In this document: positions 26,452 through 52,962 of the stretch, one piece after another
Position numbering within the stretch: the first letter of the stretch is position 1
Layout of the letters: the number at the start of each line of letters is the position of its first letter
Assembly: GCA_029204225.1 (NCBI GenBank)
Contig: CM055104.1
Location: 52,010,294-52,074,293, forward strand
Origin: Diphasiastrum complanatum
Taxonomy: Eukaryota; Streptophyta; Lycopodiopsida; Lycopodiales; Lycopodiaceae
Reading direction: 5' to 3'
Length of the DNA stretch: 64,000 bases
Program-made: the position numbers and the translations under genes
The notes under the pieces: generated by a model
What the model was told of the DNA's origin: nothing
The model's database searches: none
What the model saw: only the letters and a program-made list of their open reading frames with translations

Positions 26452-26742
26452 CCCGTAGTCTCTCCCTGTAGTCGAGGGAGACATTCCATCCATCGCCACT
26501 GCCAAGGTGAGAGGGCTTTGTAGTCTCTAGCTGCTTCTTAGCTGTCTCTCTTTGTTGCTTGAAACAATCTGGATTTTCTCAAAATTCTTTCTTGCAAACT
26601 TTTATTCGTCCTTGTGCACGTTGTATGGCCTAGATCTGCCAACTCTCAATGCATCTCGGATCTCCAATTTGCGGTGGCTTATTACGCCTCCCATGCGTCA
26701 TCCCATCTAGTTTCAATCAAATTCCAAATCAAGGGAGGGGAC
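26452..26742 (-). pseudogene. Transposase_24-like fragment, proximal part
   Basis: The minus strand from 26740 resembles the plus strand of 140-310 (GGAGATCCGAGATG, then GGCAGTGG(C/T)G). The protein-level endings are similar (HLGSGDG here, HLGSGGVG there). It was split by the Alpha copy 2 insertion and continues at 22212. A purine tract (AAGGGAGGGGA, 26731-26741) lies next to the copia A LTR. Confidence 0.35.
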
Positions 26743-27390
26743 TGTGAAATATTCAACTAGTTTGATCATATTTGCTGTATTTTCATATTTTGCAAATTGA
26801 GGCCAACTTTGTTTTTAGACTTAGAGATTGACTTTTTAAAGTTCATTAGTCTATATTTCATTTGAATAAACACTTTTTGAAAGTGTGGGAAAGTTAGAAG
26901 GCAAGTTTGAGTAGATTCAAATTTGAATGTTGGATACTTTGATTCTAGACCCAAAAATAGTAGGGTTAGCATTTTGGAGAGAAAACCAAGTAGCCGAATA
27001 GGTTCTGGACCTGTTATAAAAGGAAGAAACTCATGGAGAGACACATCTTCTCTCTTCTCTATCTCATTTCATGCTTATACATGGTTCTCTTGGGTTCTAC
27101 TATCCATTGGCGCACTATACTTGTGATTGCATGCAATTCTATGTGTAGAATGGTCTATATTTGTTATTTCTGGATCCACACGTGTGAAATACAGTAGATT
27201 GCTAGTTTTGTATAGACAGCAATAGTACTTTTTCATTTGATTCATGTTTGATCAAGTTATATTAGGGTTTGCATCTCATTTTGTGTATAGATGCTGATTT
27301 TTCTACATTGGTGAGACTGGTAGGATATCTTCTTTTGTAACCCAAGACCTTTTTGTGGATTGGATCATCAATGGTCTGAAATTCTTCACA
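26743..27390 (+). repeat. 5' LTR of copia A
   Basis: 648 bp from TGTGAAATATTCAAC to AATTCTTCACA, directly followed by TGGTATCAGA. Its first ~300 bases match 37431-37725. A TATA-like TTATAAAAGG at 27014 with start-proximal sequence downstream is the likely promoter of the element. Confidence 0.85.
27014..27023 (+). promoter_or_regulatory. TATA box-like motif in the copia A LTR
   Basis: TTATAAAAGG in the middle of the LTR; the 3' LTR keeps the same bases at 37684-37693. This is the expected place of the transcription start signal for a Ty1/copia element. Confidence 0.55.
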
Positions 27391-37430: not shown

Positions 37431-37725
37431 TGTGAAAGATTCAACTAGTTTTCCATATTTGGCAAATTGAGGCCAACTTTGTTTTTAGACTTAGAGATTG
37501 ACTTTTCAAAGTTCATTAGTTTAAGTATCATTTGAATAAATACTTTTTGAACGTGTGGTAAAGTTAGAAGATGAGTTTGAGTAGATTCGAATTTGAATGT
37601 TGGATACTTTGAATCTAGACCAAAAAATAGTAGGGTTAGCATTTTGGAAGGAAAACCAAGTGGCCAAATAGGTTTTGGACCTGTTATAAAAGGAGAAAAC
37701 TCGTGGAGAGACAAATCTTCTCTCA
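37431..37725 (+). repeat. 3' LTR of copia A, truncated
   Basis: Starts TGTGAAAGATTCAAC right after the purine run GAAGAGAGAG and aligns with the first ~300 bases of 26743-27390, ending after the TATA box region (TCTTCTCTC). The remaining ~350 bases are lost where the AT-rich block begins. Confidence 0.8.
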
Positions 37726-38654
37726 TATAAAAAGTTATCTATCTTGACTTTATGGGTTTGACAAAGTTTTGTAGTCAATCATCTTGGTGTCATTAGTAGA
37801 TAGGGCCAATTTTGGCTTTAGTGGTAAAAAGTCATGTACACATGTTTTTTGATGATTAAGCCAAAAAACATGATGACCAAAAAACAGAGAAGTGACTTGA
37901 AGACCCATTTTTTTAAAATTTACTAAATTTTTCTAAAAAGTATCTAAATTTAAAATACTTCAAATAAATATATTGTAATGGTATAAAAATGTTGTATTTT
38001 GCAAAAACATAATTTAAGCTACAAAAATTTGGTCAATAGATTTTTATAAATAGCTTAAAATTAGCTTACATTAAATAATAATACTATTTATAATAAAATC
38101 ATTAGATACACAACCACTAAAATACCTAAAAAATATTTTTTGCTTACTAAAAACAAATGTTATAGTTTTTTTTTGAAATTTTAAAAATTTTCTAAACAAT
38201 TCTTGTATCGAAAAAAATATTTTTAAAATTATGTTAAAAATTTGAATCAATGTTTTTTAAAATTTTAAATTTTTGAAAATCTTTACTTTCACCCATGTAA
38301 GTTTATTAAATATCTAAACATTAAATAAACGCAAATAAAATTACTTTACAATAATCAAGACTAAATTATTTGTGATAATATCTAAATCACCCTGAAAAAA
38401 TATAGATTTTTTTTTCATTTTTCATAATTTTTAATAATATTTTTTTTACAAAAAATATTATAAAAATACATCTAAAACTAAAATATTGTAACTTGATAAA
38501 TCATTACAATTATAGTTTTTGGTAATAATTATCAATGTTAAAATTTTTAAAATGTTTCAAATTTTAAATTTTAAATCGTTAAAAAATAAATTTAAAAATA
38601 TTAAATCAATCAAAAAGAATTCAAAACACAATACATCAAAAAATATAAACACAA
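37726..38654. other. Extremely AT-rich spacer
   Basis: No genes. Runs of A and T dominate between 37900 and 38650. It forms the left margin of the methyltransferase/DUF7869-like block; I found no terminal inverted repeat. Confidence 0.5.
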
Positions 38655-39819
38655 TTATTCTTTAAAACAAAAGAGAATTTTTAATTTCCAAAAATCATCG
38701 ATGTCATTTACATCTTTTTCTTTTGCTTTTTCTTGAGTAGCCACTGTACTATCAAGTGGCACCTCTTCTACAATTTTCTCGACTACAGTTACTACATTGT
38801 AATCTTGATCCAAGACATTAGCAAATTCTCCTGTGTCGCCTACTTTTCCGCTAGCAGGAGGTTGAGGTTCCTTGGACAAGGGAATTATTGTATCCTCGCT
38901 GTCAAACTCTTTTCCACCTCAGATAATTCATCTGGCAAAATTGAAAGAGATTTCATTCTCATTTTTATAAAATCAACTAAATTAGTATCTAAATCTACTA
39001 CAGCAACATGTCTGTCTTTTTTAATAGCACATGCGCTCGTAGTGCTGCTACTGCTAAATAAATCTAAAACTCAATCAGTTGGGTGAGAAAAAATATCAAT
39101 TAAATGATTAATTAATTGTTGTGGCTTTTGGTAGGGACAAGCCACGGAACCCGTTATTGGATTTTTTAGTTTTTTTGTCACAATTGGATACTGGAACAAG
39201 TTTTCAAAACTTGTCAGTCCGGAAGTGTTATAATACAGCATCGAGCGTTTGTCATCCAAAAAATAATAACCGATGGTTATGTATTCTATTTCATTGCAAA
39301 GTCGAGCTCCTCTCGAGTTCTTGACATTGGGCTTGTACCTGACATGGAACATTACAAGTAAAATCAATTTAAAATTTTAATTTTAAAATAAAAAATTTAA
39401 AATAAAATTATGCATTAAAATACGAATTGATAATTCATGAACTTAAGAACTTACCACACAGCATTCTCAATTCCTACATTACAGAAAGTTAGTAAAGCTT
39501 TCTATACTGATGCTGACTGCCAAGAATAATGAAAAATAACAACTTTCCAAATTGGAGAAGTTGTGACTTCAAGAAAGTCCTGTATAAAACTATGGATTTC
39601 AGTGAATTTGAAAGGAGTATCATCATTTAATAATTCTTTCATCTGAAATCCATATGGTATATCGGCGATGCCGAGTGTATAAGGCCTTTTTCTTAAAAAA
39701 TTTGAAGTTTTTCTGCAATCGTCCTCCTCAACAGAGTAAAAGCATGTTTGATCATCGACACTTTTGAGAATGTAGGTCTCTAATGGATTCTCCTCCGCAA
39801 TGGTCTCACTCCGTGCCAA
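38655..39819 (-). pseudogene. DNA methyltransferase-like gene (beta-class motif order), spliced
   Basis: Minus-strand order: the exon ending at 39455 has RKRPYTLGIADIPYGFQM (motif IV-like DIPY at about 39663-39652) and SFIQDFLEVTTSPIW. It then passes a TAG (39504-39502) into KALLTFCNVGIENAVW. A GT-AG intron (39454-39339, 116 nt, GTAAGT donor) joins in frame to YKPNVKNSRGARLCNEIEY, then YQKPQQLINHLIDIFSHPTD. A TGA (39073-39071) precedes VLDLFSSSSTTSACA (motif I-like; usual FSGSGTT) and RHVAVVDLDTNLVDFIKMR. The acidic tail SKEPQPPASGKVGDTGEFA ends at 38655. DPPY-like motif before FxG plus the KPxxLxxxLI block is typical of N6-adenine/N4-cytosine DNA methyltransferases (N6_N4_Mtase). Catalysis is unlikely now. 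Upstream exons are listed separately. Confidence 0.7.
39339..39454 (-). other. Intron, 116 nt, of the methyltransferase-like gene
   Basis: Donor TG|GTAAGTTC and acceptor CCATGTCAG|GTAC on the minus strand. Removal restores TGG TAC AAG and fuses the two conserved exons; unspliced, the frame stops at the TAA inside the donor. Confidence 0.7.
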
Positions 39820-40326
39820 TCTCTCTCCGTCCCTTTTTTTCTGTTTTTGCCTTCAGAATATGTCTCTTGAATTGCTCTGGAAGGACTTTGTTTTTTTTGT
39901 CTTCGGGAGACTGAAAAGGAAAAAGCTATGCTTAGCATGGGAGACAAAAAATATAAAATAAAATAGGAGACTTAACTTATCAAAAAATAATAATTAAATA
40001 AAAAAGCTATTAATAATAAAATATAGAAAATAGAAAATAAACAATTAATAAGCACCTATGCTAAGCATGGGTGAAATAAATACCATGTCTCTAAACAAAA
40101 TCAGAAATGGACTCAGGACTTCATTTCGGCTGCTAAGAGGATAAAGCCTCTGGCACTCATCGAAATCTTAACAATTTAACCCTGTCACAAGGGCTTCTTG
40201 AACTTTCATAAATAATTTGTGCCTGTATTTAAAAAATACAATTGTTAAAAATCCAACCAAATTATAAAAATCATTTTATTAAAAAAGGTAACATGAAAAT
40301 AAATATTCAAATTATGATTATTACCT

Positions 40327-40850
40327 CTAAAATTCTTTTCTCATTTCTGTCAGGGAAAGTTGACCATCGACAACTCTTGAAAGAACACTTATTATTAGCT
40401 CTGAAGAGTTAATCCCTTGCATATTCTTCCACTCTGATATTCCCATTTCAGTAGGGATTGGCTTCAGAGTTTGAGTGCTCACAACATTTTTTTTTGGACT
40501 TTGAGGCACCCTGAGCAAGTTGGCCTTTTATTTGGAAAGTTTCCTACTTATCAAAAATTTTATCAATAAAAGCCCACACCTGAAATAAAATAAAAAAATT
40601 TAATTGATAAAGAATTTAACCAATATTAAAATTGAGTTCAAAATTTTAGTCTGATAAAAATAATCTAAAAAGATTATAACATATATTATGACCAGAGCAT
40701 TCCATGATGAGCATAGCCAAACAAATTACCTGGCCACTATAAAAAACAAGCTGAAAAAAAATTATGGTATTTAGTAAGGCTCTGCGTAGAATTTTTCGAA
40801 TCAAAAGGCAGGTCTGTCTCTTGAGCACATAGTGCTTTCAGCTCAAGTTG
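40327..40850 (-). pseudogene. Possible N-terminal exons of the methyltransferase-like gene
   Basis: The minus-strand frame 40518-40327 has PSPKKNVVSTQTLKPIPTEM-like and ISEWKNMQGINSSELIISVL residues, without a known motif. Another short frame lies at 40828-40646. Both are on the same strand as the methyltransferase-like exons with AT-rich gaps (40520-40640, 39830-40320) that could be introns. The assignment to the same gene is inference from strand and spacing. Confidence 0.35.
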
Positions 40851-40851
40851 A

Positions 40852-42403
40852 TTCACATCTCTGCTTTGGAAACTCTCATGTATTCTTTGTGAAGAAAAAG
40901 AATTCTTTGTATCACGGTCATCTTCATCCGGTAGTCCTAATCAATATTGTGGTCCCAAGCCAATAATTTCGTTTCTTCCACTGTCAGGCCAGCAAATGCA
41001 ACTTCAAAAAAATCCAACATCACGAGGATCCTTACAGGGTCAAACTGTTTCTCCAGATGCTTTAAATGCAACTGCTTGGCTAAAGCATTTCATAGATGTG
41101 CACGAAAAAAAATTGTCTAATTCTTTATATTTTCACTTGCCGGATAATTTTACAAAATTAGAAATATTTTTAATATACAAAGAGTTTGCAAAAACAAAAA
41201 ATGTTCTCTATTTGCGTTACTCATATTTTTTTAGAATTTGGAAAAGAGATTTTGGACTGGTAAAGATTCTCAAAAAATCTACAAAAGCTCTTCAACTGCA
41301 CAGAGAGCATCGAAAGAAATGTTTGGAATGTCCACAAAAATATATGGGACTTGTTATTGATGGCATGGATCAGAACAAAACAATGTTGTCTCATTTTGTC
41401 AGAGTGCCCAAAAATTTGAACGAGACAGATTTTATTCAGGTTCATCTCGTTGAAGCACTTTTGTTTAATGGCACTTTGAAATCCAAGATCTTTTTTTATT
41501 ATCCCAATGTTCGAAATCATCCAAATTTGACGATCACCATTGTACATAAGATAATTTGCGAATTTGGTGAAAATCTTCTAGAAATACTTTATTTGCAGCT
41601 TGACAACACTGCTAGGAAAAATAAAAATCAAACTGTTCTGGCATTCTTGTCTATGCTAGTGGAGAAAAAAAATTTCAAAAAAGTAAAAATAAGATTTTTT
41701 GTTGGTAGGACATACCCACGATCAAATTGATCAAATGTAGAGTTGCCTTTCTAAGAGGTTGAGACGCAAGAAAGCATTTTCATTTCCAGTGCTTCAAAAC
41801 ATTGTTGAGGAATTGAATGTGCCAAAGCCAACGTGTCATTAATCAGACACACATATGATTTGCGTGATTATGTTAAGACATCCAACGAAACAGAGCAATG
41901 CGTAGCTAATATTAATGACATGCTTTCAGCACCAGTTTAAAATCAAATATAACAAATCAGGCATTATATTATTATGGGGCAAACTATTTTCAAATTTAGT
42001 TTCGTGGCTACCTCTTGAAGGAGTTCGATTTTTGCTTAACATTCCATCGACTCAAATCAAGCTTGTTGTGTTGTCTCCCTTGAAGTCCTTGCTAGAAGAA
42101 CAAAAGGCACAAAGAGAACATCGTGAGATTGATTCATTTGCCTCATTAAATTTTTCGGAATCAAGTATTCAAATAGCTTATTATTTTTTTGATGAGTTTG
42201 ATCAGCATTGGTGGCTGGACTTTTTCGAGGAACAAAAAATCAGTTTGCTCAATCTCGAACATACATCAACAACTCATGAATTTCATTGGCCTCATAAATT
42301 AGGAACATCAACTACGACTGTCGAACCTTCAGATTCTTGCAGCTTGTGCAAGGTGAGGAACGTGAAATTTATGTGGGCTCAAGGAAGAATAGGCAAAGTG
42401 TAA
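40852..42403 (+). pseudogene. DUF7869-like protein gene
   Basis: The plus-strand frame is open from 40852 to 41730 (ATG at 40996): LSCILCEEKEFF, NQYCGPKPIISFLPLSGQQ, then ALQLHREHRKKCLECPQKYM, LVIDGMDQNKTMLSHF, LTITIVHKIICEF and LQLDNTARKNKNQTVLAFLS. One frameshift near 41700 is followed, after a stop, by the remnant of VGHTHDQIDQM and LRRKKAFSFPVLQNIVEEL. Further frames reach 42403 (WLDFFEEQKISLLNLEH). D-G-M-D-Q, L-D-N-x-x-x-x-N-K-N and G-H-T-H-x-x-I-D are the landmark blocks of proteins annotated DUF7869. They probably have an RNase H-like transposase fold with acidic catalytic residues; that role is inferred. Confidence 0.75.
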
Positions 42404-42432
42404 AAGCTGCAAAAATGAAATAGCGCAGTGAT

Positions 42433-43004
42433 TTGAATGAAATCCAAATTGGAAGCCTTGTTGCACTTCTAGCTTCAGAAAACTATGAAGGACATCCATT
42501 TTGGATTGCCAAAGTACTTGGTTTTATTCAAAATAACAATCAAACAAAAGTACTACGTGTCCATTGGTTGCGCACCACTTCAACGAATGTTTTTTTGGGA
42601 AGGTACGAACTCGAAATGTTGCAAGTAGATCCAAAGGGCAAGAGAAAGAGATTGCCAAAAAATCACCCAAGAGTCGACGATTTGAATCTACAGGATGTAG
42701 ATGTTTTGACATTTAATTTTGAATTAATAATGACCAATCATCTACAAAAGTCAACAATATCTATATTGAAAGAACGACTTGGATTACTTGAAAAACCATC
42801 ATCTTCCACTCGTCATCAATAGAGGAAAGCTGATTTACAAGGTTTTTTGTCAACAATAGACGCGGATTCTGAGGAAGACATGCCAGTTGACTCTGATGAA
42901 GAAGACGGGTCTTCCACTTCATCAGCTGAAAATGAGAGTGTTGAGAATATGTCAAGTTCTGAATTGAGAGGCATCAGTGAAAATTCCTTAGAAAATGTAC
43001 TTTA
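42433..43004 (+). pseudogene. DUF7869-like gene, C-terminal reader-like and acidic part
   Basis: The frame from 42424 reads LNEIQIGSLVALLASENYE, GHPFWIAKVLGFIQNN, TKVLRVHWLRTT and LGRYELEMLQVDPKGKRKRL. This resembles the G-x-x-V-A...F-W-I-A-K-V...V-H-W pattern seen in small barrel folds such as BAH or Tudor/PWWP-like domains (a family resemblance only). After a stop (42823) comes an acidic Ser-rich tail, DADSEEDMPVDSDEEDGSST, to about 43003. It follows the DUF7869-like core on the same strand and probably formed one protein with it. Confidence 0.5.
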
Positions 43005-43390
43005 AAAAAAAAGAATGTGCAAATATAATTTAAGTTATTTTGTATTTCAATGGGATTTCGAGTTTCAAAAATCATTTGTTCTCTTGAATTATTATTTCTT
43101 TTGTAATTATGATGGTTTTATGAAGTTTGCAACAAAAAACTTGTAGTTCTTTATTTAAAAAATGCATTTTTTGGTATTTTTTAAAAACAAAATTTAGAGA
43201 TTTATTAAAAAAAGTTCATGATTTTGGCCTAAAACTAGGACCATTAAAAAAAACCAAAAAATATTACTCTTTTTCAGGTCAAAGTCCCAAAACAAATGTC
43301 ATCGTGTTAAAAGTCAATTATTATGTATCTCGAGCTAGTTAGGTTGCTTACAAGTGTACAACTTAGATTTGATGAGTGATCAAGTCAATG
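43005..43390. other. AT-rich right margin of the DUF7869-like block
   Basis: No gene. T/A-rich, with a short overlapping frame only (43127-43342). Searches by eye for an inverted repeat matching 37726-37900 failed. The copia B LTR starts near 43391. Confidence 0.35.
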
Positions 43391-43804
43391 TGTTGGCAAA
43401 GATTCAAGTGTCCAACCATAAGTGAAAGATTTGTTAGATGGATCCAATCAAAATCAAGGGATGATGAATCACTCATCCAATAGGATTAGAGAGGTCATAA
43501 ATAAGGGGTCCAGTAGGAATTGAGCTTGGGCCACCTCGAGTTACTACATGTACTTTGATTTCCCTCATAATCTATATTGAGTTTTTGAGAGCAATTTGAG
43601 ATCAATCAATTTTGTGTGTATTACACACTCTTTCTACCCGAGGCTTGATTGGCACTTTCTCTCTCTACTTGAGAGCAACAACTTTTCTTACTTTTTTTCT
43701 TGAGTTCCTTCCACACATGTGAAACTACTTTGGTAATGAATGTATGCATGTAGATTTGCCTCTTTGCCTTAGAATTTGACTTAAATCATGTGTGAATTTT
43801 CACA
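43391..43804 (+). repeat. Probable 5' LTR of copia B
   Basis: From TGTTGGCAAAGATTC to TGAATTTTCACA, followed at 43805 by TGATATCATAGCCTACC, which is a primer site with two substitutions (usual TGGTATCAGAGCC). A TATA-like CATAAATAAGG lies at 43497. The left end is an estimate; no 3' LTR was found. Confidence 0.55.
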
Positions 43805-44545
43805 TGATATCATAGCCTACCTAAGTTTTTGATGTATTTCTTATCAAGAGTTTCAAAATTTTCATGACAATCAAAATCTAGAGAGTGTTGATTTCATGTC
43901 CCATGCTATCTTAGAGCTTTTTGAATCAAGAGAGTTCATTATCATAAGGATTGAATCAGATCTAATACTGTACGAAAATCAATACTTAGACACGTGTGAA
44001 GGACAGCCAAATTCATTTGGATAGTTCACTTCCAAATTAGATCCAAAGTTTATGCTTGATAGCTTGTTTGTAGAGTCTAGTTTGTGTAGCAATTTGCTTC
44101 AAATCAATTAGATCTCTCACCAATTGAGTCCAGGTGGGTAAGGCACGGGCACCCAACCTGGTTGGACACATTTACTTTTGTCTCTATCATGCTTGTTTGA
44201 TCCAAAAATTCAAGATTAGGCTTGCCAATCCCGTCGATTTGAGATCTAGTCATCTTTTTGAGGTCATAGCCACATTGTTTCATACAATTGCATTGTATTT
44301 TTGTGATTGTGGATTCTTTGAGTGTTTCACATGTGCCAAAGATAGGTTGTTCCAAACTTTGCCTATACTCCACCTTTGAGTGAGAGGTTGATCTAGTTTG
44401 AGAGAGATTGGCAAAGCTAGTGAGATCCATCTCACATTTTGTTGCAAGATCTTGCATAGGAGTTGGTAGTACACCTTTCAAGGATCCTATAGTGATAGAG
44501 AAGCAACATTTATTGTCTCATTACAAGGAGTCTTCACTAATTTTG
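43805..44545 (+). other. Copia B leader
   Basis: Leader between the primer site and the gag start. The long open frame from 44408 extends in front of the likely start at 44546; earlier residues are not Gag-like. Confidence 0.55.
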
Positions 44546-45376
44546 ATGGCATCCATGGGTTCCTTCCTATTGGAATTTAGTGAAAGACTATCTACTTCCA
44601 ACTATTCTATTTGGAAGGTTAGAATGGAGTCAATCTTGATACTCCAAGATGTGATGGACATTGTACTTGATATTGAAAAGGAGCCTCGAATTCTTCAAGA
44701 AGTACAAAGATATAAAAAGAGAGCTAGGATGGCTCTACATTATATCAAGATGAATGTCTCTGATGAGATTTTGAGAGAGATTGGTGCTTGTACCTTGGAC
44801 AAGGAAGCTTGGGATGCACTCAAAGCTATTTATGAGGCCAAGAATACCTCTAGGCTCCTCACTCTTGGAAATAAAATATTCCAAAGTTTTCAAAAGAGTT
44901 ATGAGAGTGCTACTAATTATGTTTTGAGAGTGAAAGACATTCATAGGGAGCTTGCTTGTATTGGAGATTCTATCAATCAAAGTGAGGTAGTTCAAGTCAT
45001 ACTTAATGGCTTGAGAGATGAATATGAAAATCTTGTCCAATCCTATGCTATCAAGGAGAATTTACCAAGCTTGGAGGCCTTGCAAGGAGTTCTTATAGCT
45101 GAAGAATCAAGGCATGAGTACAAAATATCGAGGATGGACAAATTATCCCTCAATCATAATGGTGATGACAAAGCACTATTTGTCAAAGACAAGCACAAAG
45201 GGAGGAGCAAGAAGCATCACAAACAATTCTCTAAAGACAAACTCATAGATGGAGAGGAGGATGATTACTCTCAAACTTCTACCTCTAAGATGAAGAAGAA
45301 GAATGTTAAGTGCTTCTTTTGTGGCAAAAAAGGCCACTATGCCACTAATTGCTTAAAAAAAAAAAAACCAATTTAA
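44546..45376 (+). pseudogene. Copia B gag
   Basis: Begins MASMGSFLLEFSERLSTSNY at 44546, chosen because copia Gags start near the STSNYSIWKVRME block. It continues MDIVLDIEKEPRILQEV, KKRARMALHYIKMNVSDEIL, DKEAWDALKAIYEAKNTSRL, YVLRVKDIHRELACIGDS and VQVILNGLRDEYENLVQS. It ends with a CCHC zinc knuckle CFFCGKKGHYATNC (C-x2-C-x4-H-x4-C). The frame is open for ~277 residues, then a run of A (45357-45367) shifts the frame; an A-run slip is plausible. Confidence 0.9.
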
Positions 45377-46610
45377 GCAAGCCAACATCTCTAATGAGAA
45401 AGAAGACTCTATTGCAAGTGATGGAGAAGGATCCCTTATGGTTTATAGCTTCTCCACTTCCCCCTTCAAGAAGGATGGCTCTTGGTATATTCATAGTGGA
45501 GCATCATCTCACATGTGTTGCTACAAGGACTCCTTCTCATCTATCTTGCCTTATGAAGGAGACAAGAAGACGATATACACTGCAAATGACCAAGAGCACA
45601 AAATTGAAGGCGTAGGGACTATTCTTTTGAAGCTTGCATCATCTAAATTTCTCTCTCTAGATAAGGTTCTTTTTGTTCCCAAGCTTACAAAGAACCTCAT
45701 AAGTGTTGGCCAACTTTTTGACAGTGGCCATGAAGTGAAATTCTATATTGATACTTGTGTGATCAAGAAGAATAATGAGATCCTCGCATATGGATCTAGA
45801 TTTGGAGGAATATACAAATTGGATCCAAGAGAAAGAACAAATTCTTGTGATGTTGCTTATGTGACCAAGCTTTCCAAGAAGGAGTTATGGCATAGGAGAT
45901 TGGGACAACCCAATTACAAATCCATGCTTTCTATGATCAAAGAAAAAAAAGGTTATTGGTTTGCCAAAGACACTTTCCAAGGAGATCAAGCCATGTGAGG
46001 CTTGTGCTATTGCAAAATCACACAATAAGCCATATACAAGATATTCCATCAAAAGTACACATCCTTTGGAGTTGATCCACTCATATGTGCATTTCTCATC
46101 AAGCACAAGCAAGGGAGGAGCCTCTTATTTTGTGACATTTATTGATGATCACACACAAGATACACATGGTTATATCTTCTTTCTTCAAAGTCCATGGTGT
46201 ATGATTATTTCCTATTATTCAAAGCATGTGTTGAGAAGCAATTCTCATTGAAAATCAAAGCTTTGAGGAGTGATGGAGGTGGAGAGTACTTCTCCAACAA
46301 ATTCCATGACTATTGTGAGCAAGAAGGCATCGAAAGGGAGTTCTCTTGTGCCTATTCCCCTTCTCAAAATGGGGTGGCTAAGAGGAAGAATAGATCCTTG
46401 TGTGAATGTGCCAAAGCCATAAGGATTGAAGCATCTTTGCCTAAAGATTTTTGGACAGAAGCTATCAATTGTGCAAATTATCTTTGCAATAGCCTCCCTC
46501 ACCTTGCTCTTGGAGGAAAGTCACCATATAAAGTCTTATTCAAGAAGAAGCCTCATGTTGATCACCTTAGAGTATTTGGAAGTGTTATCTTTGCACATAT
46601 TCCCACTACA
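45377..46610 (+). pseudogene. Copia B protease and integrase, truncated
   Basis: The protease motif is WYIHSGASSHMCCYK, with the catalytic Asp of DSGA replaced by His. Then come FVPKLTKNLISVGQLFDSGH, the gag-pre-integrase domain (ELWHRRLGQPNYKSML...CEACAIAKSHNKPY, one frame change at ~45950), and integrase core remnants (THPLELIHSYVHF, ASYFVTFIDDHTQDTHGYI). KALRSDGGGEYFSNKFHDY and SPSQNGVAKRKNRSL give catalytic Asp and the usual region of Glu. After LRVFGSVIFAHIP (46565-46605) homology stops; reverse transcriptase and RNase H are absent. Confidence 0.88.
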
Positions 46611-47150
46611 AGAGGATGGACAATTTCCAAGGCTTTTTTTGAGCATTTTTTTGATAGATAGTTTTTAAAATGAGTCGTGAGGGGAGCGGAGTGCTTTGGT
46701 GTTTGGCCTCGGTATAAGCCTACCAAATCTAAACTTGTTTTTAAAACATTTATAGAGAGGGTTATAGAGAGGCCTATAGAGAGAGTTATAAAGAGGGCCA
46801 AGGTGGCAAGAGGCATTCCAAGACACTCTGTTAACCGGGGATAATATTAAGGCTGATGAAAAAAAGTCCCCTCAGTATAAATCATGGTATAAAACAGAAC
46901 GTAAATGGATCTCACATTTGGAATTTGTTACCTATCAACACATTGAATTCCATTTTCTATCAACATTGGTTGCCATATGCACAAGTGAATAAAGAAATTT
47001 TTGTATCACAAAAAAATGATGACCACAAATTGTGTACTCACATGCGTTGACTTCTTGTTTGATGTCAACTAGTCAATTAACAAAGTGTAATCGCATCTAT
47101 GAGCAATATCATTAATATTACAATGAGTTGAAATACATCGTACTCTCTCA
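46611..47150. other. Unassigned stretch between copia B and the CACTA transposase
   Basis: Contains small repeats GAGAG(G/A)(G/C)(T/C)TATAGAGAG (46754-46800), giving a short IERVIERPIERV-like reading on the plus strand. No known domain. A poly-A and A+T-rich margin leads to the CACTA C-terminal frame. Confidence 0.3.
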
Positions 47151-47151
47151 C

Positions 47152-47535
47152 TTATTCATTTGGTGGTTCATCGCTATCATTTGTCGCATCATCATGCGAC
47201 AAATCTACCAAACCAAATGAGTCTATCTCTAATTCTACCCAAATATCTCCTATAGCTTCATCATTAATAAGTTGACCTTCAAAAGCTAGTGGTGACAGTG
47301 ACAACGAGTGAGATCGGAAAGGTGTGTCATGTGTCATCGATCCATCCAATGATGATGCATCACGCTCAACATCATCATTAGCTTGTGAAGCTTGCACATG
47401 ATCATCCTCCAAAAATGTGTCATCAAATCCATCATTATGATCTTGTTCATGAGGTGCATCAGTTGACAGCGCCATGTCCTCCACAACATCTCTATCTTCA
47501 AAAATTCTTTTACTTCGAGATGCGACTTGAATCAT
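47152..47535 (-). pseudogene. CACTA transposase acidic C-terminus
   Basis: Minus-strand frame with SRSKRIFEDRDVVEDMALS, DGFDDTFLEDDHVQASQAND and a D/E-rich tail ending at 47152. CACTA TNP2-type proteins commonly end in such an acidic region after DUF4216. It lies directly downstream of the DUF4216-like exon. Confidence 0.5.
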
Positions 47536-47687
47536 GTACCACCATCTAAAATCTAAATGATCGGGGTGAAAGACCGCCTGTAATTGATCAAGTTACCATA
47601 AACTTTGACTTGCAGTGAGTATCCATAGCTAATGTTACAGTTGTTGGGTATACATGACACTATGAATTTTTTGCAGTATACTGAAAA

Positions 47688-48075
47688 TCAATTGTTTTTT
47701 ACAACAAAAGAGCATAGACATCTTGAAGACATAGAAGAAATGTACCTACTCACATTGTTGAGGAAAAACAAATATATCACTTTGATCCGTCCAAAGCTTG
47801 GTAGAGTCAATGGCAAAATAACCACGCTCATCTTTCCTAATAGTTGCATTGGGACCATTGCAAATAACTTTGAACCATTTGACATCAAATATGAAAAAGC
47901 TGAATTGCCTAAATCCAACTTCGAGGATGTCATTGATTGTCCCACAATAATCAAGTTGATAAGAGAGTAAATTTGTGTCCGTCGTGCTTGCTCGACTCTC
48001 TTGGATAAAATTTGCCATGATTCCACAATCGTATGTATTTCTATTTTTGTCCATACAAAAGTGTCGTCCATGCAT
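47688..48075 (-). pseudogene. CACTA transposase DUF4216 region
   Basis: Minus-strand frame: NRNTYDCGIMANFIQESRAS, LDYCGTINDILEVGFRQFS, FFIFDVKWFKVICNGPNAT, GYFAIDSTKLWTDQSDIFVF and QQCEQVHF. The Y-x-G-x-[IL]-x-[DE]-I-[LI]-E...[FLV]-F-x-x-x-W-[FY] pattern is that of DUF4216, found at the C-terminal side of plant TNP2 transposases. Confidence 0.7.
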
Positions 48076-48167
48076 CCACAGTACATTATATTTTTTGTAT
48101 TGAACGAAATAGAACTAAATTTGTTAGGGATACAACAAACATGTAAAAAATTGCACGTACAAATGGT

Positions 48168-48301
48168 TTAATTAACATGTGAATGATCATCATCATAGCT
48201 TACATGTAAATCGCACCCGCTTGCATATTCTCGCTCTCTCTTTGTTACTTCGTGGTTGTTTGCCAAGGATTCTCTAAGGGCATCACGCAGCCAATCAAGC
48301 G
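48168..48301 (-). pseudogene. CACTA linker between DUF4218 and DUF4216
   Basis: Minus-strand reading KARRQTARATFRRGHRRQPY and YPALLPKDMTLDWLRDALRE follows the DUF4218 exon out of frame (frame 48407-48168). It is a basic spacer of no known fold. Confidence 0.4.
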
Positions 48302-48910
48302 TCATGTCCTTGGGTAGAAGGGCGGGGTAAAGTGGATATGGTTGTCTTCTATGCCCTCTCCTGAAAGTGGCTCGAGCGGTTTGTCTACGAGCCTTGGCCT
48401 CTTCCACTTTTGCACTTCCTCACTATTAAGAATGCAAAACTTATTTACTTTCTCCCTGAAGGACTCACTCATTCTCATGATCGTTCCTTTTCCTTGAGGA
48501 ACTTCGCCAACAACACGCTCATCATCCTTCTTATCCCAAAGATGAGGAATAGAAGGATCGCTATGAGCAAGGAACTCCGTGATGTAAACCATGGACTCTT
48601 GCACTAGCCATCCTTCCGACATGCTACCCTCAGGCCTTGCTCTTTGTCTTATAAAGCCTTTCAATGTTTTCATGGATCGTTCAAAGAAAAACATCCAACG
48701 GCTATGGACAGTGCCTGAATTACAAATATGGACCAATGTTAGTGAGAGAACATGGGAATTACCACAATAGCAATTTAGTCTAGGCTGGACTAAGAATAGG
48801 CAACTGACGCAAGTAGATGATGTACCTACAATGGCCACCTCATCTACCAAATGCACAAAGAGATGCATTTTAATGGTGAGAATGGATGTGGAAAAGTGCT
48901 TCTCGATCAA
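48302..48910 (-). pseudogene. CACTA transposase DUF4218 region with intron
   Basis: The exon on the minus strand reads FSTSILTIKMHLFVHLVDEV. A stretch starting at GTAGGTACATC (about 48830) and ending TTGTAATTCAG (about 48716) looks like an intron. Next comes GTVHSRWMFFFERSMKTLKG, FIRQRARPEGSMSEGWLVQE and SMVYITEFL. This is the DUF4218 order (MVHLxVHLxxE ... RWMYPFERxMKxLKxxVRNxxRPEGS). It then runs to 48302 with a long degraded linker (RPRLVDKPLEPLSGEG). Confidence 0.75.
48716..48830 (-). other. Intron candidate, ~115 nt, in CACTA DUF4218
   Basis: GT(AGGTAC)...(TAATTC)AG on the minus strand, exactly between the HLVDEV and HSRWMFFFER halves of DUF4218. CACTA transposase genes often carry an intron at this place. 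Confidence 0.6.
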
Positions 48911-49329
48911 ACATGCTGCCTCGATGGAGCTTTGTCTTCTTGCCTCAATTGATGCCAGCGGTATCTCCTTGGATGAAATGTATCTTCATAAAAAAAGTAA
49001 ACAACAATGACATACGTATTAGTAAGATCATCATCTTGAATCATCCCAAGAAAAAATGATGTGAGATGCATTCACCGTACTTCACCAAACCACTGATTTT
49101 ATAGATTGTACTACTTTACTCCTCTATCAAGAACCCTCTCAACACCAAGGGAAGCACAAACTGCATGCACAAAAATAATCTGGTCATTGAGATACATGTA
49201 TGCGCAATGAGATCATCATGAAATTACAAGACATGCTATAAAATGTAATCCACAATGTTGAGATGGAAGCAACGTCAAAAAACATGCCATGCCGACCTGT
49301 AAAAATTTATGCCAGACATGAGACTTTAG

Positions 49330-50120
49330 TCCACTTAGCTTGTTGTCCCTTGTAAAGGCACCCTTTAGGCATCGCATGTGTCTTGTCGGAGTTCAAAATG
49401 AGGCTATTGCCTTCTTAACAATCGTCTCTTCTCTCCTCGAGAAGATCCATGGCGCCTTTGGGAGGACAATGAAATTCTTCACCATTTGTGGCCATAAATC
49501 GGCCATCTTTTCCACTTCTTTGAGGTCATCTTGTGCACCTTTTTTTATCTTTCGACCCGGTCAAGTGCTCCCAAATCATGCTCCCAACATTCTTGAATAT
49601 GTGCATTGGGTCCAAAAGATGGTTTATCAACAATTTCTCTCACTATGGGAGAGGGAGTCGCCTTAGATCTTGATTGGATCTCCAAATCTAAAGCCAATCA
49701 CTTGCCTACAATTTTAAGAAACAAGCACACACATTTAATCGAGATTATTGTTAGAAAATCTAAAGAGAATAACTATAAAATAAATAAATGTACATTAATT
49801 GGCCCAAATTAAATATGTATTGTATCTTCATGGATTGGGGACATTGACCACAAGTCCGTCACACATAGGGTGATCGGGTAGAAGGTATCGAGTGTGGCCC
49901 TCATAAACCATTTTTCGTAGATGTTGTGAGTGACGTGCTTGCAAATACTTGTCACAAACGGGGCATGCATTGTAGCCACTAGTTTGGAGCCCTACTTTGA
50001 GACCACAACCAATTTAATTATGAGTCTAATGTTTGAATTGAAAGAAAGTTTGTGAATACACATTCAATTTAATACCATAAATCAAACCAATGTCAAGGTT
50101 ATCTCACTTGAACATTCACC
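49330..50120 (-). pseudogene. CACTA (TNP2) transposase catalytic core, degraded
   Basis: Minus-strand pieces: SGYNACPVCDKYLQARHSQH, LRKMVYEGHTRYLLPDHP (49985-49845; counterpart of GYxACPxC...H-x-R-x-[FL]-L...HP) and, after a gap, DPMHIFKNVGSMIWEHLTG (about 49590-49530) followed by HCPPKGAMDLLEERRDD. The DxMHI-x-KN block is a hallmark of the Transposase_21 catalytic domain. The segment is frameshifted, and an insertion or intron separates the two parts at about 49665-49840. It cuts and moves CACTA elements by recognising their ends. Confidence 0.8.
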
Positions 50121-50838
50121 ATATCTAGGAAAGTCGCACATCGTCCACATCAAGATTCCCTTTACAACAAAATCTCTTTGTTTGCATAGTCTTGATATAT
50201 CACTCACTTGAACTCCTTGCCATAGAATCTTTAGCTCATCTATCTAGGGAGCCATATACACATCCATATCTTTTGCTTTATATATTCCTGGGATAAGAAG
50301 GGCAAACATTAGGTGCCCCTTCTTGATACTTAGCCAAGGGGGGATGTTGTAATTTACTAGGACAACCAGCCAAGTGGACCATGATGTGGAGCACAAACCG
50401 AATGGATTCACACCATCTATCATTGAATGCAAATGGCGAGGCTCATCCCTAAACTCATGCCAAATAGCATACACGTGCTTCCATGTTGAACAAATCGGCA
50501 GGGATCCTCATAGTGTCGTCCGATGAACGATTGTTTGAATGCTATGTCATTAACTCTGCTATGGAATTACACTTAAACATGTGGTGTATCCTGGGTATGA
50601 TGGAAAAATGTCTTACCACCTTGGCGGGTATGGTCGCTCCCTGTAAATCTTGCCCATAGCAATGTTTCCCACATCGTGGACACGTGCTTGCCTCCTTAAA
50701 CTCATCTCGATATAAGATGCAATCACTGGGACATGCATGAATACTCTTGTAATCCATGCCGACCACGGAGAGCATTTTATTGGCTTCTTGTGGAGACGCC
50801 ACCATGGTGTTATTTGGAGGCAACATTTTTCTGAGCAA
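50121..50838 (-). pseudogene. CACTA (TNP2) transposase, central region
   Basis: From 50838 on the minus strand: LPPNNTMVASPQEANKML, SVVGMDYKSIHACPSDCILY, ASTCPRCGKHCYG (a C-x2-C zinc-like pair), VVRHFSIIPRIHHMFKCNS. Then from 50474: WHEFRDEPRHLHSMIDGVNP, FGLCSTSWSTWLVVLVNYNI, PPWLSIKKGHLMFALLIPG, DMDVYMAP, then QVSDISRLCKQRDFVVKGIL and MWTMCDFPRYGECS (50230-50110). This order (LP..N..P.S..EAKK...Y.KI..CP..C.LY, IPRL...F, DG.NPFG, NLPPWLCMK..., D.DVYLAPLI) is that of plant CACTA TNP2 proteins. Confidence 0.9.
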
Positions 50839-50997
50839 ACTGCAACAAAATATCTATGTAACTAGTTATAGTTTCTCACAATGCATAAAAAAATAAAATG
50901 AGATGAGAGTTTGTCTATAACACACAAGAAGCTAGCAAGCTTACCCAAACAACTTTGTGACGCTCGCATCTTACCAACCGTACTTAGTTTGCAAGTT

Positions 50998-51216
50998 CTA
51001 AAGTAACAAACAAGCTTTCAACTTTGACATTTGTCCACCCTCGTACAAAGGGGTGGATGCAAAGCCACGCATCATCTCTTCTTCCCTTGTCAATGTGGTC
51101 TCAAGGGGCTCTGTGAAGAATGCATCCATCATGTCATCCATGTCCCCCTCGTGATCATGCATTGTGAATGGCACATCCTCATGTATTGTGTCTCCTTGGG
51201 ACATATCTTCGTGCAA
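50998..51216 (-). pseudogene. CACTA transposase N-terminal exon
   Basis: Minus-strand frame with an acidic start (HDHEGDMDDMMDAFFTEPLE) and FASTPLYEGGQMSKLKACL. The PLYEG..xSKL motif is the usual beginning of the conserved TNP2 part. The following block is interrupted at 50997-50840. A gypsy-adjacent fragment at 60084-60215 has the same PLYEGxxxSxL block. Confidence 0.75.
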
Positions 51217-51259
51217 GTCATGTGAATGTGATTCATCATCCTACACAATACAAGTGCAA

Positions 51260-52962
51260 CAACAATCAAGAACAAAAGAATATTCTCTCCAATCGTGAAG
51301 ACCACCAAATACATACACTATAAGAGTGCATGGAATGGTTTTTAACATTAATGTAAAGTGCTTTGGCAATCAAAACTCACCGAAGAACCGACTTCGGGCC
51401 CCACAAATAATGACTCTCTCTCAATTTGTCCATACATGCGAACGTGTGATATGGTAATATGTCGCTCTTATCGTAGTGCATACTTACACCATGTCCATGG
51501 ACATGGTATTCTCTGGTATGGCCAGGCCTCTGATCCAACATGTGATGGTCTTGCCTCATCATCTGAAGAAGAAGAATGTAAACTCGCCATCTGCATCAGC
51601 TCATCTTGACAAGTGACAATGGATCAAATACAAAATTAGAGAGCAATACATGTCATAAACAAATTAAATACATGTATACATGAATACAAGACATGTTTTG
51701 TAATTTTGAGTCTAGTGCAATCTCTCCAATTTTTTTTAAAATGAACGAAATTTATTAACAAACAATATTGTTCAACCTAGCTTAGTTGTACGGCACTTGC
51801 TTGGATAGTGCAAGAGCATTCTCGATGAACATCGTTCGTCAAGGTGATCGGTTTAGGTGACCTTTGTTATTGGTATCTAGAGCAATATCTCTAGTAGCAA
51901 TAAATCCAAGGGTCATACCCAAGGCAATTATATCCACAACTATTGCTCCCCAACTTAGCTTTCATAAGACAGGGGAAAATCGCCTTGCACCATTAACAAA
52001 GTATGTCATGATATCTCACAACAGGAAAACAGTCTTAAGCTCATATTGTTTAGTTATTATTCTTGGATTCATTATGATTTGCTATCTAATTGAGCACTCT
52101 GGGATACAATCACTAATGAGTTGAGTCTATTCCTTAACTACACATAATTTTAACTGATGAACCCAAATGATTCACTAATCATGCATCTTACAAGCAATAG
52201 AAAATAAAACTATCAGTTTCTGGTGAATCCTCATCACACTGATCGTTTTACCAATTGACTTCATCTTGGAGTAATCAACTACTCAAGTTAATTGCCAATG
52301 ATTCAAAAATCTCAAATGCCTAGGTTAAGAATTCAATTATACTAGTATGACACCACATTTAGATCCTTACCCAAATCATTTATAAGTTAATCCATAAATC
52401 TTCCATACAAAGATTTGTTAACTCTACAAGTATTTGTCAAAACAATACTTGATTAGATGTCTATGTTCACCGACTAGATTAAGTGCACCAAATAACTCTA
52501 GTAACTAGGAATACACAATAGATCCATACAAGATTAATTGTGCATATATGTGAATAATCTCACTATGACCCAGTACATAAACATATTTTTATTTGGCAGA
52601 TTCCTCCAGAACCAACATATGTTACTCACATATCTCACTGAGATCTTGTAACTCAGCTACAAAAGATTTTCTAATTCTCATGAGAAAATAACATATCCGG
52701 AAAATCTCTGAGACGAATAACATTCACTCTCAACAGTTTTTTAATCCCACTTACATCTAATTACATAATTTCTTCCACTCAATCACTCAACTAGGATTAG
52801 GTTGATCCAATACAGAACTCTCGAACTTAAATCTTGATCAAACTTACTCCTATTCCAACCAAAATGAAATTAGTAACATTTGACCTTTCATTGTACTGCT
52901 TATAAATAATAATTCAAATTCCAAACTTGTTCTAGTTTCAAATTGTCCACAAAATCCCTAGA
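51260..52962. other. Right flank of the CACTA gene and unrecognised interval
   Basis: 51260-51600 may be 5' untranslated/N-terminal CACTA sequence (minus strand), without a clear protein. From about 51780 to 52962 no open frame or motif is recognised. A primer-site-like TTGGTATCTAGAGC lies at 51868 (plus strand). The interval continues on the other side of the Gamma insertion. Confidence 0.35.

Follow-up and report, generated by a model that had tools for sequence, protein, structure and literature searches.

A decayed DNA transposon in a lycophyte genome with divergent genes for a DUF7869 protein, probably its transposase, and a DNA amino-methyltransferase-like protein

We analysed a 64,000-nucleotide stretch of the genome of the lycophyte Diphasiastrum complanatum (assembly GCA_029204225.1, contig CM055104.1, positions 52,010,294 to 52,074,293 of the forward strand; from here on, the window). 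It contains two damaged genes on opposite strands, one on the minus strand resembling beta-class DNA amino-methyltransferases (here also methylases) and one on the plus strand encoding a DUF7869 protein. A preliminary description, made from the letters alone, had proposed that the two genes form one mobile element. By comparing copies, we found that they lie in a decayed DNA transposon copy with terminal inverted repeats (TIRs) and target site duplications (TSDs). Its features are listed below, where L079, L080 and L081 are other copies in the same genome and L003 and P0013 are fern-like relatives.

37863..37866, no strand: TSD AAAA on the methyltransferase side, A-rich and weak taken alone
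37867..43308 (5,442 bp), no strand: decayed DNA transposon copy, bounded by loss of similarity to L080/L081 together with TIR and TSD
37867..37877, plus strand: TIR AACATGATGAC, 10/11 bases matching the opposite end; the identical 11 bases are present in L080 and L081
38655..39338, minus strand: methyltransferase exon 5 with YKPN, QKPxxL, motif I and an acidic tail, with a stop ahead of motif I and a frame change; bounds by eye
39455..39910, minus strand: methyltransferase exon 4 with motif IV (ADIPYGF); bounds by eye
40084..40222, minus strand: methyltransferase exon 3 with one stop, matched by L079 (85%) and, by eye, by L003; bounds by eye
40320..40527, minus strand: end of methyltransferase exon 2 with the SVLSR block, matched by L079 (86%) and, by eye, by the P0013 C-terminus
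40814..40829, no strand: intact (empty) target site CTGTCTCTTGAGCACA; in another copy, L080 occupies the corresponding position
40853..41001, minus strand: remnant of the methyltransferase N-terminal exon with the TVEETKLLAWDHN block, matched by L081 (85%), L080 (77%) and, by eye, P0013
40996..41001, no strand: internal deletion junction with 6 bp of microhomology, where L081 has about 3.4 kb
41002..43005, plus strand: DUF7869 gene, 5' truncated, with stops and frame breaks; DGMDQ, LDN, HTHDQID, a C-terminal PFWIAKV region and an acidic tail
41279..41306, no strand: second internal deletion junction, where about 0.3 kb present in L081 is missing
43298..43308, minus strand: TIR AACACGATGAC, unchanged in L081 and L087, with one mismatch in L079 and six bases missing in L080
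43309..43312, no strand: TSD AAAA on the DUF7869 side

Profile searches upheld both family assignments of the preliminary description. Read through its stops, the plus-strand gene scored 121.2 bits against the DUF7869 profile PF25273 (cut-off 26) and 73 bits in a single open piece; P0001, P0002, P0004 and the L003 frame scored 175 to 185 bits. Seven relatives were found at E 0.01 or better among 7994 proteins scored, from Ceratopteris, Riccia, Adiantum, an amphioxus hybrid and two further sources. Because similarity to the Ceratopteris protein P0002 begins at its residue 187 (window position 41065), the window gene lacks its 5' part. The minus-strand gene, read through with X at stops, scored 48.6 bits against PF01555 (N6_N4_Mtase; cut-off 26.7), and its single open pieces remained under that threshold, at 17.4 and 14.1 bits. 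The open pieces at 39071-39376 and 38885-39070 cover consecutive parts of the profile, and the piece at 39502-39852 alone gave no profile match. The best PDB matches are the beta-class enzymes CcrM (E 1.6e-5), RsrI and MboIIA. As had been claimed for this gene, the motif order is that of the beta class: in alignments to CcrM, motif IV (DIPY) comes first and QKPxxL and then motif I (DLFSSSSTT) follow in the C-terminal part, with DIPY lying opposite DPPY in a separate stretch that scores just 0.8 bits. The two exons initially described were retained, one of them (exon 5) being aligned by L081 over its whole length in a single frame, but that gene structure was incomplete, as additional 5' exons are present.

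The element ends were recovered only through comparison among copies; a TIR search inside the window alone was at chance level, with 73/500 and 155/500 random pairs scoring equally high. Terminal repeats, initially reported as absent, do exist in the short form AACAYGATGAC (11 bp, 10/11 matching), and the extent first given (38655..43004) was too short, since the element spans 37867-43308. We identified 4-bp TSDs identical on both sides in four of the six testable copies: AAAA in the window, AGTT in L081, TTGA in L080 and TGTT in the fern-like L007. The length of 4 bp was picked after comparison with 5 and 6 bp, and its independent support is the L080 site. L080 has inserted into another member of its family and has TTGA on both flanks, compared with one TTGA in the empty site of the window. 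Because L080 carries both genes between these duplications and its empty site is known, the two genes move as one unit, in agreement with the pairing proposed at the outset.

L079, L080 and L081 are separate insertions with other flanks, and block by block they are 87-94% identical to the window copy. L080 (8916 bp) and L081 (9084 bp) each contain both genes, while L079 has lost its methylase end. The spacing of about 25 bases noted initially between the two genes is the scar of the deletion at 40996-41001 and follows from internal deletions relative to L081. A further, inverted and near-identical copy of at least 9.9 kb (L078; G000:C13:51243500-51253400) lies on the same contig at a distance of about 0.8 Mb. 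It is 99.4% identical to the window, flanks included, and represents either a recent segmental duplication or an assembly artefact. In the whole genome (1.74 Gb), a first look gave 2954 DUF7869 and 3927 methylase candidates, of which the best 150 per gene were scored (the methylase places merging to 137 loci), so that the copy numbers are indicative. Among the best 150 places per gene, we found 7 pairs within 10 kb, compared with 0.24 expected, and six of the seven are head-to-head. Two of these six lie on C17 with flanks in common and represent a single duplicated locus. For the pair on C5, the DUF7869 end alone was recovered, and for the pair on C9 neither end was.

The same pair occurs in a second, fern-like lineage. 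When prokaryote genome contigs were scanned using the methylase alignment, 8 of 76 pattern matches were confirmed as loci, all in one metagenome-assembled genome (MAG) labelled Trichormus (CAKZGI01; L002-L009). The fern-like genes on these contigs are most simply explained as contamination by the host fern, which we infer to be Azolla on the basis that the genus Trichormus includes T. azollae and that the genes are fern-like. In this MAG, DUF7869 is present on eight contigs, the methylase N-terminal exon on nine and both on five. Head-to-head co-occurrence in other copies had been set beforehand as the test of the pairing, and it was found on 5/5 contigs with both genes, with a gap of 958-1602 bp in the four measured, in addition to the own-genome pairs described above. 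The four methylase contigs without DUF7869 (C259, C294, C358 and C473) could not show it because each has fewer than 900 bases ahead of its methylase match, and three contigs (C299, C326 and C425) have DUF7869 without a methylase match. L003 and L007 contain the whole element, with inverted ends that start AACAC, and in L007 and L005 the ends can be aligned over 33-34 bp. L003, L007, L008 and L009 each have an uninterrupted DUF7869 frame of 865-869 amino acids (aa). Six loci retain the long first methylase exon as an open stretch of about 500-583 aa; in L005 it is shortened, and in L008 and L009 the contig end removes the methylase C-terminus. Short repeats between the two genes (L008:6239-6930 and L009:3650-4140) match each other in both orientations, and similar self-matches occur among L079-L081 near L079:4643-5032. 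The MAG is cyanobacterial and part of the GTDB set; that it seems to hold plant contigs is relevant to its users.

Both genes are under purifying selection in the fern-like lineage. The ratio of nonsynonymous to synonymous substitution rates (dN/dS) was 0.07-0.12 for DUF7869 in all six pairs of the four open copies, L005 being excluded for its broken frame. The methylase sets consisted of the open stretches of the other loci only. For the first methylase exon, dN/dS was 0.06 and 0.08 in the 2/15 pairs that were computable (proportion of nonsynonymous differences, pN, 0.12-0.22), and for the motif IV exon it was 0.03-0.04 in 3/15 pairs (pN 0.04-0.12). The remaining 25 of the 30 methylase pairs were synonymously saturated, with pN at 0.04-0.22 across all 30. 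Of the three stretches tested, the motif IV exon showed the strongest constraint (dN 0.04-0.13).

A structure model of the DUF7869 core has the strand order of RNase H, and among the 50 structural neighbours listed for it, mariner-type transposases and retroviral integrases are in the majority. Based on this model, the DUF7869 protein probably has an RNase H-like core and is a probable DDE/D transposase. Other searches with this gene gave no match in BFVD at E 0.001, no match in a sequence profile search of PDB at E 1 and no relative in viral contigs (83 pattern matches, 0 confirmed). DUF7869 is named in no paper of the literature searched, and the finding suggests a function for this uncharacterised family.

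To place the methylase among its relatives, a 580-aa query with the extra exons was used, which found five proteins at E 10 among 1010 candidates: P0008 (E 1.6e-29), P0009 (E 1e-26), P0010 (E 1.3e-9), P0011 (E 6e-8) and P0012 (E 5.9). A 284-aa query found no protein, probably because its candidates were limited to proteins of at most 1.75 times the query length. P0008 (30.9 bits) and P0009 (34.9 bits) exceed the PF01555 cut-off, and both share ADIPYGF with the window copy (3/3 aligned); none of the three has the canonical two-proline motif (D/N/S)PP(Y/F/W). The family alignment was made without the fragment P0010 and without P0011 and P0012, which are ordinary SPPY/DPPY enzymes. P0010 is a potassium-channel-like gene model of D. 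complanatum that ends in a fused fragment of the methylase family (83% identity), either an annotation artefact or an exonised transposon. All eight fern-like loci have motif IV as IADIPYGF or VADIPYGF, a count biased by the search itself, which used [IV]ADIPYGF as one of its two patterns. In the 34 own-genome loci scanned (L048-L081, several of which duplicate each other and some of which end before the motif), we found IADIPYGF in 14, a decayed form in 5 and no recognisable motif in 15. Motif I is DLFSGSGTT in 13 of these 34 and FSGTG in L003, and the SSSS of the window copy is therefore probably decay. One remote methylase was found in viral contigs, on L001, where the seven DUF7869 proteins had no match.

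P0013, the first methylase exon, shows conservation across fern-like and own-genome copies, and by eye it resembles ParB (IGGSHSAEARRQL). It also has weak matches to DUF6551 (E 0.07 and 0.01). P0013 had no match in phages at E 10, while P0009 matches 94 phage records. The best 20 of these 94 include ParB-N6_N4_Mtase fusions (L082-L085; Ca. Heliusvirales), which keep the ParB idea alive. In the two phage proteins scanned, ParB_N scored 33.7 in L083, above the cut-off, and 24.9 in L082, just below the cut-off of 26.3. Like the plant protein, these fusions have an N-terminal domain followed by the methylase; unlike it, they have DPPY and a single reading frame of 412-427 aa, and the plant N-terminus has a resemblance to ParB by eye only.

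Together, these data lead us to conclude, with a probability of roughly 0.8, that the element in the window is an old copy of a cut-and-paste DNA transposon that has suffered internal deletions. Its family is characterised by short inverted AACAYG ends, 4-bp TSDs and two divergent genes, one for DUF7869, the probable transposase, and one for a large DNA amino-methyltransferase whose N-terminal domain may be ParB-like. Several observations weigh against parts of this reading. For the transposase, the structural Z scores of the DUF7869 core are below 8 throughout, and Foldseek had no hit with an E value of 0.001 or lower. For mobility and pairing, the window copy and L078 share flanks and, as a segmental duplicate, are no proof of mobility; the fern-like L003 and L005 are flanked by no matching duplications; and in one of the seven own-genome pairs both genes lie on one strand. 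Decay is also seen in some fern-like copies, with the DUF7869 frame broken in L005 and stops in the methylase exons on C358 and C473. For the methylase, motif IV is DIPY and not the usual DPPY, SPPY or NPPY, with DPPY in 0/42 loci (8 fern-like and 34 own-genome). The ParB-like N-terminus had no match in Pfam, PHROGs, NCBIfam or a PDB profile search, hhalign with very shallow profiles gave a probability of 0.2% for ParB (PF02195), and the structure model of this exon is poor (predicted local distance difference test score, pLDDT, 42).

How such an element might work can be outlined as follows. The DUF7869 protein would cut and join DNA via a DDD triad. The methylase would place a methyl group on adenine N6 or cytosine N4 of the element's own DNA, to which its N-terminal domain could steer it. 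Most likely, the methylase would mark element DNA. In bacterial transposons, movement is timed through Dam methylation; likewise, a mark on the ends of this element could regulate its movement or hinder C5 methylation, so that the marks would time transposition or keep host silencing off. CpG observed/expected is 0.61-0.68 in four own-genome copies, compared with 0.45 in the rest of the window (2-kb bins 0.03 to 0.80), which is weakly in line with less C5 methylation of the copies. We put forward tentatively, as one possible account, that a fern and lycophyte family of cut-and-paste transposons writes its own N6-methyladenine (6mA) or N4-methylcytosine (4mC), using an enzyme of phage or bacterial descent, to time its transposition and escape silencing by 5-methylcytosine (5mC).

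An alternative that we regard as unlikely is that the methylase belongs to the element and is catalytically dead, having kept the binding of S-adenosylmethionine or DNA and lost catalysis through DIPY, and that it serves as a DNA-binding helper or transposase repressor. The absence of DPPY from every scanned copy, with ADIPYGF in 8/8 fern-like loci (subject to the pattern bias noted above) and 14/34 own-genome loci, fits this alternative. However, the Asp, the second Pro and the Tyr of motif IV are retained, motif I is FSGSGTT in 13/34 own-genome loci and FSGTG in L003, and the motif IV exon is the stretch under the strongest constraint; moreover, bacterial enzymes with DLPY/DIPY motifs occur. 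It is rather improbable that the methylase is passive cargo, a host or bacterial gene captured by the transposon without a role in its life. Transposons frequently pick up genes, and the own-genome copies examined are decayed, but the head-to-head pair is present both in the genome of the window and in the fern-like contigs, and constraint is strong among copies with silent sites near or at saturation. That two unrelated decayed elements lie side by side by chance, as the many DUF7869 places without a methylase nearby among the best 150 listed per gene might suggest, is extremely improbable and is refuted by L080, with both genes in one TSD-flanked unit, and by the 5/5 fern-like contigs.

We compared the proposed transposon with known systems as described in the consulted parts of the sources cited. 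Its ends and duplications fit Sola2 elements (PMC3627910), which have 4-bp AT-rich TSDs (4 bp in 4/6 testable copies here), short imperfect TIRs (12-21 bp, compared with 11-34 bp here), a transposase of 888 aa (DUF7869, 865-870 aa) and a record of acquiring a second gene, which in Sola2 is Fanzor1; the likeness lies in TSD, TIR and protein size. Membership of KDZ (Zisupton) was rejected, as an 8-bp TSD is expected there and the L080 site with its empty counterpart shows 4 bp. The fungal TET/JBP transposons (PMC12730594) are likewise DNA transposons with an enzyme acting on DNA methylation; these enzymes work on pre-existing 5mC, in fungi and with other transposase families (Zisupton, 8-bp TSD), whereas the plant enzyme is a likely writer of amino-methyl marks. 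DIRS retrotransposons carry Dam-like N6A methylases, and long interspersed nuclear elements (LINEs) and DIRS elements of Symbiodinium as well as charophyte elements carry C5-methylases (PMC5890265). These mobile elements, too, bring along a DNA methyltransferase gene of their own, and one occurs in a green plant lineage, but they are described as retrotransposons with C5 or Dam-like enzymes and not with a beta-class N6_N4_Mtase and DUF7869. Mariner elements integrated in viruses (PMC3627910) combine a cut-and-paste transposase and a methyltransferase in one element; they differ in residing in virus genomes, in the Methyltransf_26 or C5 type of their enzyme and in having an endonuclease partner. 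The bdelloid N4CMT and the Marchantia 4mC methylase (PMC8885841) are amino-methyltransferases of bacterial origin in eukaryotes, but they are described as host genes and not as transposon genes, and N4CMT has SPPY.

Mobile elements with DNA-modifying enzymes are thus already known from retroelements, fungi and virus genomes. A transposon with DUF7869 and an amino-methylase is named in none of the titles and abstracts among the matches listed, in a search outside of which most subscription journals lie. The element is of a known kind, a DNA transposon with a DNA-modifying enzyme, and its combination of DUF7869 with an amino-methylase appears to be new. A vascular-plant DNA transposon with its own amino-methyltransferase would represent a novel weapon in the conflict between transposons and silencing. 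The element is also a concrete candidate source of 6mA and 4mC in plants; if this is true, a selfish element produces some of the disputed 6mA/4mC of plant genomes.

The surroundings of the element in the window contain further repeats. The minus strand at 47000-51600 resembles, by eye, a CACTA/En-Spm (Tnp2-type) transposase; a single short piece translated by eye gave no match in Pfam. Two copia long terminal repeat (LTR) copies, at 26740-27300 and 37433-37735, are 91% identical over 275 bases, and the second stops a short distance from the methylase end of the transposon copy. A Copia-type LTR retrotransposon at 43307-46700 (gag_2, 86.9 bits) abuts the DUF7869 end, and its CpG observed/expected of 0.13 indicates strong depletion, compared with 0.59 in the adjoining block.

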